In this document: one piece after another, positions 14,958 to 38,366 of the stretch
Layout of the letters: every line of letters begins with the position of its first letter
Numbering within the stretch: the stretch's first letter is position 1
Virus record (IMG/VR): IMGVR_UViG_3300044641_004545
Span: 1 to 38,366 of that record
Length of the DNA: 38,366 bases
Reading direction: 5' to 3' (one strand)
Source: a virus
Made by a program: the position numbers and the translations under genes
Notes under the pieces: generated by a model
Told to the model about the DNA's origin: nothing
Seen by the model: the letters and a program-made list of their open reading frames with translations, nothing else
Database searches by the model: none

Positions 14958-15362
14958 ATGATTCTGGGCGTGGAGGCAACCCCCGTCTTAGAGGTCACAC
15001 GACGCATCCGGTTCGAGGCAGCTCATCACCTGCCCGGGCACCCTGGCGAGTGCGCGAGGGTTCATGGCCATAGCTGGCAGGCGTGGATCACGGTGAGGGG
15101 TCCGCAGCAGACCGAGGGCGATGACGCCGGGATGGTCATTGAGATGGGCAAGCTGGCAGACTTCTTCAAGAGTGACGTCGAACCGGGGCTCGACCACCGG
15201 GCGCTAAATGACACGCTGCCGGATGAGTTTCTACCGCCCACCACTGAAAACGTAGCCCGGTTTCTGCTGGCAGTGTTCCGGGGTGCCGGGTTCCCGGTGG
15301 TGCGGGTCACAGTGCGTGAGACTGAGAATCAGGAGGCGACGGCGTTCCATGCCGATGAGTAA
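14958..15362 (+). CDS. queD: 6-carboxy-5,6,7,8-tetrahydropterin synthase QueD
   Basis: A 134-residue protein of the QueD/6-pyruvoyltetrahydropterin synthase fold. It converts dihydroneopterin triphosphate to carboxytetrahydropterin, the second step to preQ0. Visible marks are FEAAHHL (His23/24), catalytic Cys32, VHGHS (His36, His38 as zinc ligands), DHRALND, the PTTENVA block and RETEN. ATG 14958 has no clear ribosome site; GTG 14970 in frame is an alternative. It heads the deazaguanine cassette and overlaps queE by 14 bases. Confidence 0.9.
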   Translation: MILGVEATPVLEVTRRIRFEAAHHLPGHPGECARVHGHSWQAWITVRGPQQTEGDDAGMVIEMGKLADFFKSDVEPGLDHRALNDTLPDEFLPPTTENVARFLLAVFRGAGFPVVRVTVRETENQEATAFHADE

Positions 15363-16086
15363 GGAAGCAGCCTCCGTGCGTTACCCGGTGGTCGAGGTAT
15401 TCGGGCCGACCGTTCAGGGTGAAGGACCGCACGCCGGCAGAGTCGTGAGCTTCGTGCGTTTCGGTGGCTGTGACTACCGCTGCTCGTGGTGTGACAGCCT
15501 CTACGCAGTGCTGCCGCAGGAGGTCAAGCAGAACTCGACCAAGATGACTGCCGCCGAGATAGTGTCGGCCCTGCCGCCGAAATCTGACACGGTGATCCTT
15601 AGCGGTGGCAACCCGGCACTGATCCACGGGGACCAGCTGGTGCGTGCCCTGGCAGATGCGGGCAAGGCGTTTCACGTGGAAACGCAGGGCAGCAGGTGGC
15701 GAACCTGGCTCCGTCACGCCGAGCTGCTGGTGGTAAGCCCTAAGCCCCCGAGCAGCGGGATGGCAGAGAAGGCGGAGCAGGAGGTGCCAAAGTTCATACA
15801 CCGCTGGCAGGCTGAGGGCCAGAACCCGCTGGTGTTGAAGTTCGTGGTGGCGGACCAGCAGGACCTCACGTGGGCGCTCGATGTCTATGACGCAGTGAAC
15901 CCCCGGGGGGACCTGCCGCTATACCTAAGCGCCCTCACGCCGCCGGACTGCTCACTGGAGCAGCTGGCTGCCAGCTACCGAAACCTCTGTGAGCTGGTGC
16001 TGGGCAGCCACCGGGCACGTAAGGCGGAGCCGGTGGTGCTGCCGCAGCTTCACGTCATCGCCTGGGGGCATGAGCGTGGCGTCTGA
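15349..16086 (+). CDS. queE: 7-carboxy-7-deazaguanine synthase QueE (radical SAM)
   Basis: A 245-residue radical-SAM enzyme that rearranges carboxytetrahydropterin to 7-carboxy-7-deazaguanine. It opens with [14 protein letters not shown], the QueE hallmark, and carries the iron-sulfur motif C-x3-C-x2-C at Cys41, Cys45 and Cys48. The phrase [10 protein letters not shown] corresponds to the SAM-binding GGEP-type motif with Asn in place of Glu, as QueE enzymes often show. ATG 15349 is preceded by AGGAGG (15331-15336). It overlaps queD and the folE start. Confidence 0.92.
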
Positions 16087-16627
16087 CGAGCTGGAGCAGT
16101 GCTACCGCCGCCTCATCACTGAGGCCGGGGATGACCCGCTGCGTGACGGGCTGGCGGATACCCCTGCCCGGGCGGCCCGTGCGTGGCGCGAGCTTACGGC
16201 GGGCTACACGAGCGAGCCTAAGCTGACGGTGTTTCCGGCTGACGGATTCGATGAGGTGGTGGCGCTGCGTGACATCTCGTTCTTCTCGCTCTGTGAGCAT
16301 CACCTACTTCCATTCTACGGTCATGCGCACATCGCCTACATACCCGGGGACACCATTCTGGGCCTGTCTAAGTTCGCCCGGGTCGTTGAGACCTACGCCC
16401 GGCGACTCCAGGTTCAGGAGCAGCTGACGCAGCAGGTGGCGGACAAGCTCACCCGGGTGCTGCGGCCGAAGGGGCTGCTGGTGGTCATCGAGGCGGAACA
16501 TCTCTGTATGGCTATGAGGGGGGTCCAGAAGATAGGCTCCCGGACCCGGACCAGCTTCGCAGGTGGGGCGTTCCGTGACAACGCAGAATCTCGAGCGGAG
16601 GCCATGTCCCTGCTCGACCTAACGTAA
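16070..16627 (+). CDS. folE: GTP cyclohydrolase I FolE
   Basis: A 185-residue enzyme that opens GTP to dihydroneopterin triphosphate, the entry step of the pathway. The zinc ligands are Cys75 and His78 ([12 protein letters not shown]) and Cys146 (EHLCMAMRG); also [20 protein letters not shown] and GSRTRTS, all standard for FolE. ATG 16070 lies 17 bases inside queE; GTG 16076 may be the real start because GGGGG is too close to the ATG. Carrying its own FolE lets the phage raise precursor supply above the host folate level. Confidence 0.92.
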
Positions 16628-16636
16628 GGAGTAACC

Positions 16637-17209
16637 GTGAGCAGCTGGCAGAACAGAATCGTGGGCAGTGGTGAGGAGGCACCGGACCAGCTGATGGCGA
16701 ACCCTAAGAACTGGCGCATCCATCCAATCACGCAGCAGGAGGCAGTCGGGAACGTGCTGGATGAGGTTGGCTGGGTCCAGCAGGTAATCGTGAACAAGAC
16801 AACCGGGCACCTCGTGGATGGGCACCTGCGTGTCGCCCTGGCGATTAGTCGAGAGGAGCCGTCCATACCCGTGACCTACGTGGAGCTGACCGAGCAGGAG
16901 GAGGCGCTGGTGCTGGCTACCCTTGATCCGCTCGCCGGGCTGGCTGCCACGGACGCTGACAAGCTGGCTGAACTACTGGGCGAGGCTGATACGCAGGGGC
17001 AGGCGCTCCAGAACCTGCTGGATGACCTGAGTAAGTCAAGCGCCCCGCTGGATGACCTTACGGAGCAGGGGGCTGTCGCCAATGACGAGGACTTCTGGCC
17101 CGTGATTCGGCTCCAAGTCAGTCCCGAGACATACCGGGCATGGAGTCAGGCGTGGGACCAGCTGCCCGGTGAGAATGACAATGACAAGCTGACCTCGCTG
17201 CTTCCGTGA
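16637..17209 (+). CDS. ParB/Srx-like domain protein of the deazaguanine cassette
   Basis: A 190-residue protein starting at GTG 16637 behind AAGGAGTAA. Residues 18-75 form a ParB/sulfiredoxin-like domain: NPKNWRIHPITQQEAV, GWVQQVIVNK and the key LVDGHLRVALA. The rest is acidic and helical and ends in a small strand/helix unit (WPVIRLQVSPETYRAW). The ParB fold uses CTP or ATP in other proteins and also occurs as nuclease. Here it sits between folE and the dpdA-like gene, two bases before the latter's GTG, so it probably helps DNA modification (recognition or nucleotide hydrolysis). That role is inference. Confidence 0.75.
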   Translation: MSSWQNRIVGSGEEAPDQLMANPKNWRIHPITQQEAVGNVLDEVGWVQQVIVNKTTGHLVDGHLRVALAISREEPSIPVTYVELTEQEEALVLATLDPLAGLAATDADKLAELLGEADTQGQALQNLLDDLSKSSAPLDDLTEQGAVANDEDFWPVIRLQVSPETYRAWSQAWDQLPGENDNDKLTSLLP

Positions 17210-17210
17210 C

Positions 17211-18059
17211 GTGGTCGGCTACCTGCTCAGTTTCTTCTACTTCAAGAAGGTAGCTCTAGACGAGCTGGCTGCCGCCACCGGTCGCCCTGGTATCAAGTTC
17301 TTCGCGGACTCAGGAGCCTACTCGGCTCATACCACTGGGGAGCCGGTGGTGCTGGATGATTATGCGGTCTGGGTCAAGCGGTGGGAACACCTGCTGGACC
17401 CTTACGTGAATCTCGACGTGAAGTTCAACTCAGAGGCCGGGCAGGCTAATCAGGCGCATCTGGAACGGCTGGGCCTAACGCCTGCCCCAGTGTTCCACCT
17501 CGGTGAGCCGCTGGACCTGCTGCGTGAGATGGTCGAGCGGCATGACTTCGTCGCGGTGGGCAACATCACGGGCGAGAGCCGTCGAGACCCGAAGCTTTGG
17601 GCGGCGCTCGATCAGATCCACGGCATAGCTGCCGAGGCCAACACCGGGCTTCACGGCTTCGGCGTAGGGCACTGGCCCATTATTAGGAGGTGGCCCTGGC
17701 GAAGCGTGGATAGCAGCAGTATGGGCGCGAGCTTCCGCTACGGAGTGGCCCACCTGTTCAACCCCTACGAAGATCGCTGGGTGAAGTTCCGCACCCGCGA
17801 GACTGCCACGTGGCACCGCTGGGGCTGGCTCCTGCGTGAGTATGGATTCGAACCCGGGGAGTTTGCCGGGCGCAGCCGTAAGGAGCAGCTGATACCGCTG
17901 TTTCGGCTCGCTGGTGCTACGTGGGCACGGGCGGCGCAGGCGAAACCGGAAACGGACTTCTACCTCGTGGACCTCGGCTTCCCGCAGGTCTATGAAGACC
18001 ACCCCCGAATCACCTACTACGAGCGAGGCGTTCAGATGGTGGAGGCGGTGGCTGCGTAG
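17211..18059 (+). CDS. dpdA: DpdA-like DNA-guanine transglycosylase (TGT superfamily)
   Basis: A 282-residue protein related to tRNA-guanine transglycosylases. The expected two catalytic aspartates are Asp33 in FFADSGAYS and Asp69 in VNLDVKF; PVFHLGEP, FVAVGN and the GVGHWPIIRRWPW loop follow the barrel order. It has no cysteine at all, so it lacks the zinc site of queuosine tRNA enzymes, as expected of phage DpdA proteins that act on DNA. It would swap guanine for preQ0 in phage DNA. GTG 17211 follows the ParB-like stop by one base; its own stop overlaps the next GTG. Confidence 0.8.
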   Translation: MVGYLLSFFYFKKVALDELAAATGRPGIKFFADSGAYSAHTTGEPVVLDDYAVWVKRWEHLLDPYVNLDVKFNSEAGQANQAHLERLGLTPAPVFHLGEPLDLLREMVERHDFVAVGNITGESRRDPKLWAALDQIHGIAAEANTGLHGFGVGHWPIIRRWPWRSVDSSSMGASFRYGVAHLFNPYEDRWVKFRTRETATWHRWGWLLREYGFEPGEFAGRSRKEQLIPLFRLAGATWARAAQAKPETDFYLVDLGFPQVYEDHPRITYYERGVQMVEAVAA

Positions 18060-18346
18060 TGGGTCCTCTGGCGCACGTTGCCACTGGCAAGGCTGTGAAG
18101 GCTCCCGCCTTGGCGAGCGTGTGGATGGACGCGCCGCACCTGCTCCGGGTTGTCAATCCGGAGCTGGCACCACTGGGGCAGCGGGTGGCTAACGCGACGC
18201 ACGGCTGGCCCGGGCTGCTGGCAGCTGCCGCTATATGGGGCAGCAGGGGCGTGGCTGGCTGGGCGCTTCACGTGGCGCTGGACACCATTAGCCATGATGA
18301 AGGAATGGGCAGCCACGGCAGGCTCCGCAAGGTATGGCTCCCGTGA
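18059..18346 (+). CDS. Small His/Asp-rich protein between dpdA and queC (YdjM-like remnant?)
   Basis: A 95-residue protein starting at GTG 18059 (TAGTG with dpdA) and overlapping the queC start, so it is tightly built into the cassette. It has a striking set of possible metal ligands: His6, Asp24, His27, His48, His71, Asp75, His79, Asp80. The order HVATG, MDAPHLL, THGWPGLL, HVALDTISHD resembles a shortened YdjM/DUF457 membrane-bound metal hydrolase, with weak hydrophobic helices at 51-60 and 64-75. It could be a hydrolase acting on the precursor or a membrane partner. I have no proof of function. Confidence 0.6.
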   Translation: MGPLAHVATGKAVKAPALASVWMDAPHLLRVVNPELAPLGQRVANATHGWPGLLAAAAIWGSRGVAGWALHVALDTISHDEGMGSHGRLRKVWLP

Positions 18347-19263
18347 CGCACCACGGGCTCGACCGCCTAGCTGCCAACGATGTGACGCTGGCCAGCTCGA
18401 GTGACTGGGACCGGCTGGCCGATGACGTGGTGGCCGGCAGACTGGGGACGCCCTTCGAGCAGGACACCGAAGCTCACTGGGAGGTCAGTGGGCCGCAGCC
18501 ACCGGACAAGGACTTCGGCGTGGTGCTGGCAGTAAGTGGCGGCATGGACAGCGCCTCCCTGCTCTGGCAGGCGACGGACTGCTCAGTGCCGGTGGAGCGA
18601 GTGTTCTTCAACCTGGGTCAGCCCTACGTGGCTCACGAGCTAAGGGCGCTGGATGAGCGCCGGGTGGAGTTCACTGTCCATACAGAGCGCCCCCGGTGGC
18701 GGGATCATGACGGGATACTGGTGGGCCGCAATACCTTCATCGCCCTGCGTGCGGCGCAGCTGCTCCATGAGTCAGGCCGGTGGGGCGAGGTATGGCTGGG
18801 GGCGGTAGCTGGTGAGAATGACTGGAGGGGCGGTGACAAGAGCCAGAGGTGGCTGGCAGACCTGAACGGGATGCTGGCCCGGGCCGGGGTGGACGTGCGG
18901 GTAGTCGCCCCTCTGCACTATCTTGACAAGGCAGATCAGGTCGCCCTGGCGAACGCTCAAGGATGGGCGGACCAGCTGGCGGCGACTAAGAGCTGCCACC
19001 GGGGTGATGTCTGGGCCTGCGGGGCGTGTAAGACGTGCTTCCGGAAGTGGGTCGCGTTTCATGCTCTGGGGCTCGACCGCCTGCTGCTGCCTTATCACGA
19101 TGCCCCCATTACTGCGTTCGCGCAGATTGCCGAGCAATACGAGCAGTGGATCGAGCGCCCGGGGTCTAAGTATGGACTACGCCGCAGGCAGACCACCCGG
19201 GCGGCAATAGCCAGCGTCCGGCGTGCCGCGGAAGGTGGGGGCGCGAGCATCCCCACCGGGTAA
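18334..19263 (+). CDS. queC: 7-cyano-7-deazaguanine (preQ0) synthase QueC
   Basis: A 309-residue ATP-dependent enzyme that turns 7-carboxy-7-deazaguanine into preQ0. The PP-loop is SGGMDS (68-73). The zinc site is Cys221, Cys229, Cys232 and Cys235 (CGACKTC), the QueC hallmark. About 60 extra residues precede the PP-loop and about 45 follow the usual domain, so it is longer than the common 220-230. ATG 18334 lies inside the upstream gene; GTG 18343, which overlaps its stop as GTGA, is the alternative. It closes the cassette. Confidence 0.9.
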   Translation: MAPVTHHGLDRLAANDVTLASSSDWDRLADDVVAGRLGTPFEQDTEAHWEVSGPQPPDKDFGVVLAVSGGMDSASLLWQATDCSVPVERVFFNLGQPYVAHELRALDERRVEFTVHTERPRWRDHDGILVGRNTFIALRAAQLLHESGRWGEVWLGAVAGENDWRGGDKSQRWLADLNGMLARAGVDVRVVAPLHYLDKADQVALANAQGWADQLAATKSCHRGDVWACGACKTCFRKWVAFHALGLDRLLLPYHDAPITAFAQIAEQYEQWIERPGSKYGLRRRQTTRAAIASVRRAAEGGGASIPTG

Positions 19264-37331: not shown

Positions 37332-38116
37332 TGCCACGCACCCGGGCGCTTGAGCAGCGGGAGCTGGCGCTGGTCCGACTCTACGAGCAGGCGGAGGCGG
37401 AGCTGGTGGCGCAGCTGGCCCAAGACCTAGAGGCCGGACGGCTGGGAACCGCTCGATACCGGGGGCAACGCCTTGCCGCTATTCGGGAACGCCTTAGCCG
37501 ACTTCAAGACGCAGCCATACCGCTGTCCACGGAGCTAATCGGTGCCGCCTACATTCAGGGAGTCACGGCAGCTACCCGGGCAGTGCGCACCAGCCTGCCG
37601 CAGTTCGGCAGTGGCATTCACGCAGAAGCACTGGACCTGCTGGCGGACAACCTGGCGAATGGCCTCAACGGCGCAGCGGAGCAGCTGGGGCGGCGCATCG
37701 AGGACCTGTATCGCCGGGCCGGGCTGGAACTGGCCACGCAGCAGATCGCGCAGGGCCAGTCACTGCGTGAAGCTACCGAGGGGCTGGTGCGGGCACTGCG
37801 TGAAATGGGGCTCGACGCTGGCCCGGGCGGCGCTCGCACGTGGAGGCTGGGCCGGTATGCCGAAATGGTGATACGCACGAACACCACGGACGCGATAGTG
37901 CGGGGCAACGTGAACGCTGCCCTAGAGGATGGCTACGATCTGGTCGAGGTGCTAGTCGTGGATGATGAAATCCTTTGCGACATCTGCGGCCCTTACGCCG
38001 GGCAGACCTTCACGCTTACCGAGCGAGAAGGATACGAACGTCTGACCGAGCTGCCACCGTTCCATCCGAACTGTCGTTGCGACCTAAACATTCTGACAAG
38101 CGATCCCCGTGAGTAG
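37331..38116 (+). CDS. MuF-like minor head protein
   Basis: A 261-residue protein. The N-terminal two thirds is helical and Ala/Leu/Arg-rich. The C-terminal third has the MuF signature: RLGRYAEMVIRTNTTDAIVRG, DDEILCDICGPYAGQTF and ELPPFHPNCRCDL, with paired cysteines likely to bind zinc. MuF proteins are injected or located inside the head near the portal. Here the gene is 7.7 kb after portal, behind the connectors, which is an unusual order. Confidence 0.75.
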   Translation: MPRTRALEQRELALVRLYEQAEAELVAQLAQDLEAGRLGTARYRGQRLAAIRERLSRLQDAAIPLSTELIGAAYIQGVTAATRAVRTSLPQFGSGIHAEALDLLADNLANGLNGAAEQLGRRIEDLYRRAGLELATQQIAQGQSLREATEGLVRALREMGLDAGPGGARTWRLGRYAEMVIRTNTTDAIVRGNVNAALEDGYDLVEVLVVDDEILCDICGPYAGQTFTLTEREGYERLTELPPFHPNCRCDLNILTSDPRE

Positions 38117-38366
38117 CCCGCCAAGATTCGATCCAGCAGCCGTGAAGCGTGCCGTCGAGCGTGAAATGAACGCCCTGGCGACGGACGTGCTGGCCGAGGC
38201 AAAGCGGCAGGTTCCGCTCGAGAAGGGCATCCTCCGCCGCAGCGGCACGAAAGAAATCGGCTGGCAAGGTGACAGGGTCGTAGCGGTGATTTCATTCAAC
38301 ACTCCTTACGCCGCATATCAGCATGAGGGCATCGGGTTCCGCCACCCCCGGGGCGGGAAGGCAAAG
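38109..38366 (+). CDS. Head-tail connector / tail completion protein (HK97 gp10-like), 5' part
   Basis: This is the first part of a gene that runs off the window and continues at bases 1-208, because the contig ends overlap. It starts at GTG 38109, just before the stop of the MuF-like gene (38114-38116), which suggests translational coupling. The joined product is about 112 residues. It has a charged helical N-terminus, the phrase TPYAAYQHEG and then GGKAKYLEDPL. That pattern is typical of the HK97 gp10 / minor capsid family, which sits at the head-tail joint. Its place after two connector genes and before the tail terminator fits. The family call is by recognition of motifs, not by alignment. 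Confidence 0.7.
   Translation, partial: MSSPPRFDPAAVKRAVEREMNALATDVLAEAKRQVPLEKGILRRSGTKEIGWQGDRVVAVISFNTPYAAYQHEGIGFRHPRGGKAK

Follow-up and report, generated by a model that had tools for sequence, protein, structure and literature searches.

A distinct QueC-like clade in phage operons predicted to modify DNA with 7-deazaguanines

Closest described systems and the locus under study

Which 7-deazaguanine base a phage carries is usually predicted from the genes it encodes, with the presence of QueC taken to mean preQ0 (7-cyano-7-deazaguanine). Among the closest described systems are those of Rhodococcus phage Finch, Mycobacterium phage CRB2, Arthrobacter phage Sonali, and Bipper, in which the genes for ParB, DpdA, QueD, QueE, and FolE are clustered. 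Where clusters of the Finch, CRB2, and Sonali type include QueC, a canonical queC directly follows dpdA, whereas Bipper has no queC. The virus record IMGVR_UViG_3300044641_004545, analysed here over its full 38,366 nucleotides (the window), carries a similar cluster but in the rotated order queD-queE-folE-parB-dpdA-x-QCL, where a QueC-like (QCL) gene takes the place of queC. By sequence comparison, this QCL protein is not a canonical QueC but belongs to a distinct, widespread, and virus-specific clade with an altered active site. The operon itself joins a known type of system, ParB-DpdA-QueCDE-FolE clusters being common, also in actinophages. An IMG/VR fragment (L022) has the same order queD-queE-folE-parB-dpdA, with DpdA, QueE, and FolE 48%, 48%, and 62% identical to those of the window, but differs in having no QueC or QCL in the examined stretch, which begins at queD at the contig end.

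Several other systems resemble the QCL part of the operon. Canonical QueC proteins (PF06508 cluster 1) have the ATP loop (PP-loop), the RN pair, the Asp, the Lys, the zinc site, and the fold in common with QCL, whereas in QCL Y35, H39, and both the Tyr and the Cys of the YPDC motif are replaced and the clade is separate. Cap9, from type IV cyclic-oligonucleotide-based anti-phage signalling systems (CBASS), is 28% identical to the window QCL and shares Q(x)5E, LVGRN, and C(x)7CxxCxxC with it, but Cap9 keeps a YxDC motif where the window protein has GGDKS, lies outside the QCL clade, and scores with the canonical model. No operon protein matched a CBASS partner of Cap9, nor was a nucleotidyltransferase family (CD-NTase) found among the other open reading frames (ORFs) scanned. 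In the menderaviruses Mendera and Ps15 of Stenotrophomonas, a QCL-clade gene adjoins a TGT-like gene and QueE, as in the window (PMC9025141), although these are 160-kb phages with HAD-like and myo-inositol-1-phosphate synthase neighbours. Bacteroides phage BS162P1 is a further but weaker candidate for a cultured QCL phage. Finally, the QCLs closest to that of the window (35–39% identity) lie beside ParB-DpdA in HAD::QCL operons from IMG/VR (L103 and L065), which differ in their N-terminal HAD fusion and in a canonical QueC within the same cluster.

A separate clade of QueC-like proteins

A tblastn search with the canonical QueC of Finch retrieved 327 phage records. With the window protein as query, only nine Menderavirus records were found (26% identity) and no canonical phage QueC. 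In the PDB, its best sequence match is Cap9 (9nto, E=1.3e-6), compared with 0.004 for the QueC entry 2pg3. Against TIGR00364 it scores 47 bits, below the curated canonical-QueC threshold of 150.3. QCL loci were retrieved by peptide patterns, with 80 more coming from an additional scan, and the non-redundant set comprises 78. With leave-one-out hidden Markov models (HMMs), the QCL model gives the window protein 135 bits and the canonical QueC model 67, and over the QCLs the corresponding values are 118–230 and at most 101 bits. The canonical proteins tested, including the QueC of Campylobacter phage CP220, score the reverse way, and Cap9 sides with them. In a FastTree phylogeny of 71 sequences, the window protein falls in a 16-member clade (support 0.91) that excludes Cap9, E. 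coli QueC, and the canonical QueCs of phages. An AlphaFold2 model built with 15 QCLs (pLDDT 85) has the QueC/Cap9 fold; Foldseek aligned it with B. subtilis QueC (3bl5, TM 0.72 on the target) and with Cap9 (9nto, 0.77). The separate clade, like the homologies and the gene content, is thus a direct observation, and so is the altered active site described below. Nothing in the complete genome matched the canonical QueC model better than QCL did.

Two other assignments were rejected: that QCL is Cap9 proper, on the basis of the tree and the leave-one-out HMMs, and that it is a plain QueC with sequence noise, on the basis of the recurrence of the same substitutions in 78 loci. QCL may overlap with a named Dpd enzyme such as DpdL; among the papers searched, none dealt with both DpdL and 7-deazaguanine.

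The QCL active site

The active sites of the 78 QCLs were compared with those of 54 canonical QueCs, in E. coli numbering and with the six commonest residues listed per column. Position Y35 is Tyr in all 54 canonical proteins and mostly Leu, His, Thr, Met, Ile, or Val in QCL; position Y131, aromatic in all 54, is mostly Ser, Val, Ala, Ile, Glu, or Gly. Among these common residues listed, the 78 QCLs have neither a Tyr at Y35 nor an aromatic residue at Y131. In addition, H39 is replaced by Tyr in 61 of the 78, and C134, the Cys of YPDC, by Lys or Arg in 73. By contrast, D133, R99, N100, K165, the four zinc-binding Cys, and the PP-loop are kept in every QCL. The window protein fits this definition of a QCL, with non-aromatic residues at both tyrosine sites, the Asp retained, and Lys for C134: its residues are L (Y35), Y (H39), G (Y131), D (D133), K (C134), and H (Y189). 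It has LGQPYVAHE instead of the canonical YxQxHxxE that contains Y35, and GGDKS instead of a YPDC with aromatic Y131. It also has the SGGMDS loop and the zinc cysteines C221, C229, C232, and C235, with a C(x)7 spacing where canonical proteins have C(x)8.

The replaced residues are functionally important in related proteins. The Y35A, Y131A, and Y189A variants of E. coli QueC have lost preQ0 synthesis in vivo (PMC13329287), and in Cap9 the Tyr of a YPDC-type motif stacks on the deazaguanine while the Asp reads its Watson-Crick edge (PMC13279940). Taken together, the residue pattern, the E. coli mutants, and the Cap9 structure lead to the prediction that QCL binds a 7-deazaguanine and ATP, but that the chemistry it performs around the 7-substituent differs. 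From a full preQ0 gene set without a recognized tailoring enzyme, the preliminary description of this DNA had predicted dPreQ0 (7-cyano-7-deazadeoxyguanosine) as the base, unless the small unknown gene alters it. Given the HMM scores and the lack of equivalents of Y35, Y131, and Y189, this is unsupported as worded, and dPreQ0 becomes one candidate for this phage and not the default.

Gene neighbourhoods of the QCL family

QCL genes keep company with the pathway. At least one other 7-deazaguanine gene is present at 74 of the 78 loci, whose contexts were cut at 6–10 kb. QueD, QueE, and FolE occur together at 41 loci, and 35 of these 41 have no canonical QueC in the examined stretch, which points to 7-carboxy-7-deazaguanine (CDG) as the QCL substrate. 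Ten loci, one of them ambiguous, also carry a canonical QueC, including L103, which holds the nearest QCL relative of the window.

A HAD-phosphatase-like domain is fused or adjacent to QCL at 31 of the 78 loci, versus none of 49 canonical-only loci, a count that is inflated because QCL neighbours provided the seeds of the HAD model; the fusions are independent of that model. They lie beside DpdA and place the HAD domain N-terminally in L103 (2470–3813) and C-terminally in L111 (6144–7082), L116 (7899–8921), and L117 (7950–8915), with a further HAD-QCL fusion in L198 (6685–7665). Other neighbours are a myo-inositol-1-phosphate synthase adjoining QCL in an IMG/VR phage (L034 7602–8678, PF01658, 117 bits) and in a Menderavirus (L007 2320–3570), a glycosyltransferase (L055), a YhhQ-type transporter in a single locus, and a radical SAM and methyltransferase-like pair beside QCL and DpdA that is common to L032 (7211–9365) and L084 (1978–4395). 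L032 additionally encodes a QueC-type protein of 481 amino acids. None of these helpers of QCL relatives (HAD, inositol synthase, glycosyltransferase, radical SAM/methyltransferase, or YhhQ-type) was recognized in the window.

Candidate products of the pathway

The reading that we favour, while holding it to be slightly short of an even chance, is that the base is a CDG-derived 7-carboxamide (dADG or an N-substituted form) inserted by DpdA. FolE, QueD, and QueE would convert GTP to CDG. QCL, like QueC and Cap9, would then use ATP to activate the carboxylate of CDG, and would couple an amine to it. As no tailoring enzyme was recognized, the simplest product would be the amide ADG, giving dADG in DNA, although an N-substituted amide is possible. 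DpdA, aided by its ParB-like partner, would exchange DNA guanines for the modified base, and the modified guanines would be shielded from host restriction. That QCL acts on CDG is suggested by its fixed Asp and Lys, by its being the sole QueC-type protein of a complete genome, and by sister operons of the same arrangement. The amide rather than nitrile product, the role of ParB, and the biological effect are inferred as well.

Several points weigh against this carboxamide reading. The product cannot be read from sequence, and none of the QCL phages found has had its nucleosides measured. The Tyr at H39 in QCL could replace Y35, and the rebuilt pocket may still make preQ0; most QCLs moreover keep a Tyr at position 189, where the window protein has His. 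QCL often occupies the slot of a canonical QueC, for instance in L027. At the other loci, the lack of a canonical QueC has been established only over some 10 kb. A host QueC could supply preQ0. The co-occurrence of both proteins at ten loci suggests a different or further step for QCL. Finally, dADG has been reported in Campylobacter phage DNA (PMC8306585), and the QueC of that phage is canonical by its motifs, so that motif and product have no simple mapping.

The closest rival, a serious one but of somewhat lower probability, is that QCL is a fast-evolving but working QueC whose preQ0 is inserted by DpdA as dPreQ0, as in CAjan and Rosebush. The gene set equals that of Hutinet group 2, the measured members of which carry dPreQ0 (PMC6884629): a DpdA homologue is present and FolE, QueD, and QueE are encoded, although the canonical QueC is absent. 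QCL also retains the PP-loop, D133, R99/N100, K165, and the zinc site, matches B. subtilis QueC in fold, and sits in the QueC place in several operons. However, the window protein has substitutions at three residues that E. coli QueC requires to make preQ0 in vivo, the change is fixed over 78 loci and is not random drift, and ten loci keep a canonical QueC in addition.

A bolder view, possible but doubtful, is that QCL represents an unrecognized and widespread phage family of ligases with the QueC fold, which convert CDG not to preQ0 but to another base, so that many phages, this one among them, would contain an undescribed DNA base. This base might be an N-substituted 7-carboxamide, possibly bearing a sugar or inositol and finished by a HAD phosphatase. 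In a related and rather unlikely reading, QCL is a ligase that joins CDG to a larger amine, derived from an amino acid, a sugar, or a polyamine, so that the DNA would carry a hypermodified 7-carboxamide-7-deazaguanine, while the HAD, myo-inositol-phosphate synthase, glycosyltransferase, and methyltransferase of the relatives would make or trim the attached group. As the carboxamide reading includes this one as a special case, the confidences given to the two overlap. Cap9 offers a parallel, since it links CDG to the amine of a protein through an amide (PMC11996544), and phage DNA bearing a carboxylate handle has a precedent in carboxymethylcytosine with its AMP-forming ligase (PMC12783734). 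The excess of HAD domains beside QCL, and the inositol synthase, glycosyltransferase, and radical SAM genes (L034 and Menderavirus, L055, and L032 and L084, respectively), would fit as well. Yet no such helper was recognized in the window, the HAD model came from QCL neighbourhoods, and gene context is only suggestive.

It is improbable that QCL, in the manner of Cap9 and QatC, acts on a protein, for example by modifying the N-terminal glycine of a partner, with DpdA inserting CDG or host preQ0. Cap9 is the nearest PDB sequence, the window protein has the Cap9-like Q(x)5E, LVGRN, and C(x)7C spacing, and the adjacent 95-amino-acid ORF begins Met-Gly (MGP); but this ORF is not conserved, no CD-NTase or QatB was recognized in the genome, and both HMMs and tree separate QCL from Cap9, which lies nearer canonical QueC. 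A role in tRNA modification or in boosting host queuosine, which a TGT-superfamily enzyme with precursor genes and the occurrence of the pathway without DpdA in some phages (PMC6884629) might suggest, is rejected as the main one and considered very improbable, because the transglycosylase falls in phage DpdA families and adjoins ParB, because QueA, QueG, and QueF were not recognized, and because the DpdA of phage 9g acts on DNA and does not replace Tgt in E. coli (PMC6884629).

Predictions that take a QueC gene to mean preQ0 are unsafe, because much of what is called "QueC" in phages differs from the canonical protein in its partners and, in a fixed way, in its active site; the QCL phages may conceal new DNA bases. 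QCL also widens the list of reuses of the QueC fold, with QueC itself, Cap9, and QatC. As cultured menderaviruses carry QCL, the question of its product is testable now.

The operon and its other genes

The seven genes lie on one strand, overlapping or nearly abutting (Table 1). We are highly confident that they form a phage 7-deazaguanine operon for DNA modification, which is well supported by the complete FolE/QueD/QueE set, a DpdA with conserved residues, and many sister operons, both in Finch, CRB2, and Sonali and in IMG/VR.

Table 1. Genes of the 7-deazaguanine operon in the window
Gene and product	Length (aa)	Coordinates	Strand	Evidence and features
queD, 6-carboxytetrahydropterin synthase	134	14958..15362	+	PF01242, 92 bits; C32/H36/H38
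queE, 7-carboxy-7-deazaguanine synthase, radical SAM		15349..16086	+	phrog_2076, 138 bits; CxxxCxxC; refined start 15349 or 15355
folE, GTP cyclohydrolase I	185	16070..16627	+	PF01227, 223 bits; C75/H78/C146; refined start 16070
parB-like, ParB-domain protein, DpdB-like by position	190	16637..17209	+	phrog_498/phrog_620 (ParB or ParB-MTase)
dpdA, DNA-guanine transglycosylase (predicted)	282	17211..18059	+	phrog_887, 132 bits
Orphan ORF	95	18059..18346	+	GTG start overlapping dpdA stop; no family match
queC-like (QCL clade)	309	18334..19263	+	leave-one-out HMM, tree, active-site table; ~60-aa N-terminal extension

The genes and coordinates of this compact, overlapping operon were correct in the preliminary description, and so were the key residues it named in FolE, QueD, and QueE, together with SGGMDS and the four Cys of the QueC-like protein. 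Its statement that all enzymes from GTP to preQ0 are encoded with DpdA holds for FolE, QueD, QueE, and DpdA; the QueC is not canonical, and the ParB-like gene had been left unnamed. Against the TIGRFAM models, FolE scores above the cut-off (TIGR00063, 207 bits), QueE slightly below the equivalog cut-off of 206 (TIGR03365, 193 bits), and QueD under the cut-off of 89 (TIGR03367, 79 bits). No amidotransferase, QueF, or ArcS was recognized among the main ORFs scanned, some small ORFs lying outside the scan, and no base-tailoring enzyme, QueA, or QueG in the window. The orphan protein has a hydrophobic stretch with His and Asp residues; it has no homologue among phages or in IMG/VR, where its single match (L118) is due to chance. 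As single IMG/VR queries, the DpdA, QueC-like, and orphan proteins yielded no usable relative.

DpdA has no Pfam match and is 36% identical to the DpdA of Bipper. It retains the residues invariant over seven phage DpdAs (DSGA, LD, H148, and the DSS of VDSSS) and contains no cysteine, so that a TGT-type, Cys-based zinc site is absent. Its family membership suggests that it acts on DNA; in CAjan, deletion of DpdA leads to loss of the modified base (PMC6884629). Tandem DpdA pairs were observed at six other loci (L043, L048, L077, L082, L084, and L085).

The parB-like gene lies directly 5' of dpdA, with a ribosome-binding-like aaggag upstream of its start. Of 67 non-redundant IMG/VR DpdA loci, 53 have ParB next to DpdA, and in 49 it lies directly upstream. 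Full-length relatives of the ParB-like protein adjoin dpdA, the best being 54% identical, and over its N-terminal 129 residues the protein shares 56% identity with the ParB portion of methylase-annotated genes in Stenotrophomonas and Xanthomonas phages. One ParB module is thus found with two different DNA-modifying enzymes, DpdA and a methylase. A ParB-superfamily protein has already been suggested as a DpdB-like partner of DpdA in CRB2 (PMC6392294), and ParB domains accompany other phage base-modification enzymes (PMC12783734). By analogy, ParB can reasonably be regarded as a probable accessory or targeting module shared by DNA-modifying enzymes.

The genome and its restriction-site avoidance

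The window is an entire IMG/VR record and forms a closed circle of 38,239 bp (G+C 65%). It is considered complete and circular because of an exact 127-bp terminal direct repeat (positions 1–127 and 38240–38366), the length of which matches an assembler k-mer overlap, and because an ORF starting at 38109 reads over the junction through 1–208. The repeat rules out that the record is a genome fragment.

The structural genes are of the tailed-phage type and include a tape-measure protein. The label of a 38-kb actinophage is plausible, since relatives of the portal protein come almost all from actinobacterial phages; as several of these have genomes of 37–41 kb, the size, which had been presented as notable, is not odd. 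The nearest relatives of the phage that were found are two IMG/VR fragments (L121 and L122) with portal proteins 72% and 62% identical. The earlier remark that there are almost no replication genes holds at the HMM level: the ORFs scanned gave no match to any polymerase, primase, or helicase family, and the replication- or nuclease-type matches are a RusA-like resolvase, an HNH protein, and a metallophosphoesterase.

Palindromes were counted on both strands of the whole 38239-bp circle. TGCA occurs 3 times where about 175 sites are expected and GTAC twice where about 90 are expected; AATT and TTAA (about 20 expected each) are absent, as are GGCGCC and GGGCCC. This avoidance, which includes G-free sites that a guanine modification could not protect, indicates strong restriction pressure. 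Avoidance of 6-mers is also seen in CRB2 and Sonali, two actinophages with DpdA, but TGCA and GTAC are not lost there to a comparable extent. As full protection of guanines would not predict the avoidance of TGCA and GTAC, the modification in this phage is probably partial or motif-specific, or else recent.

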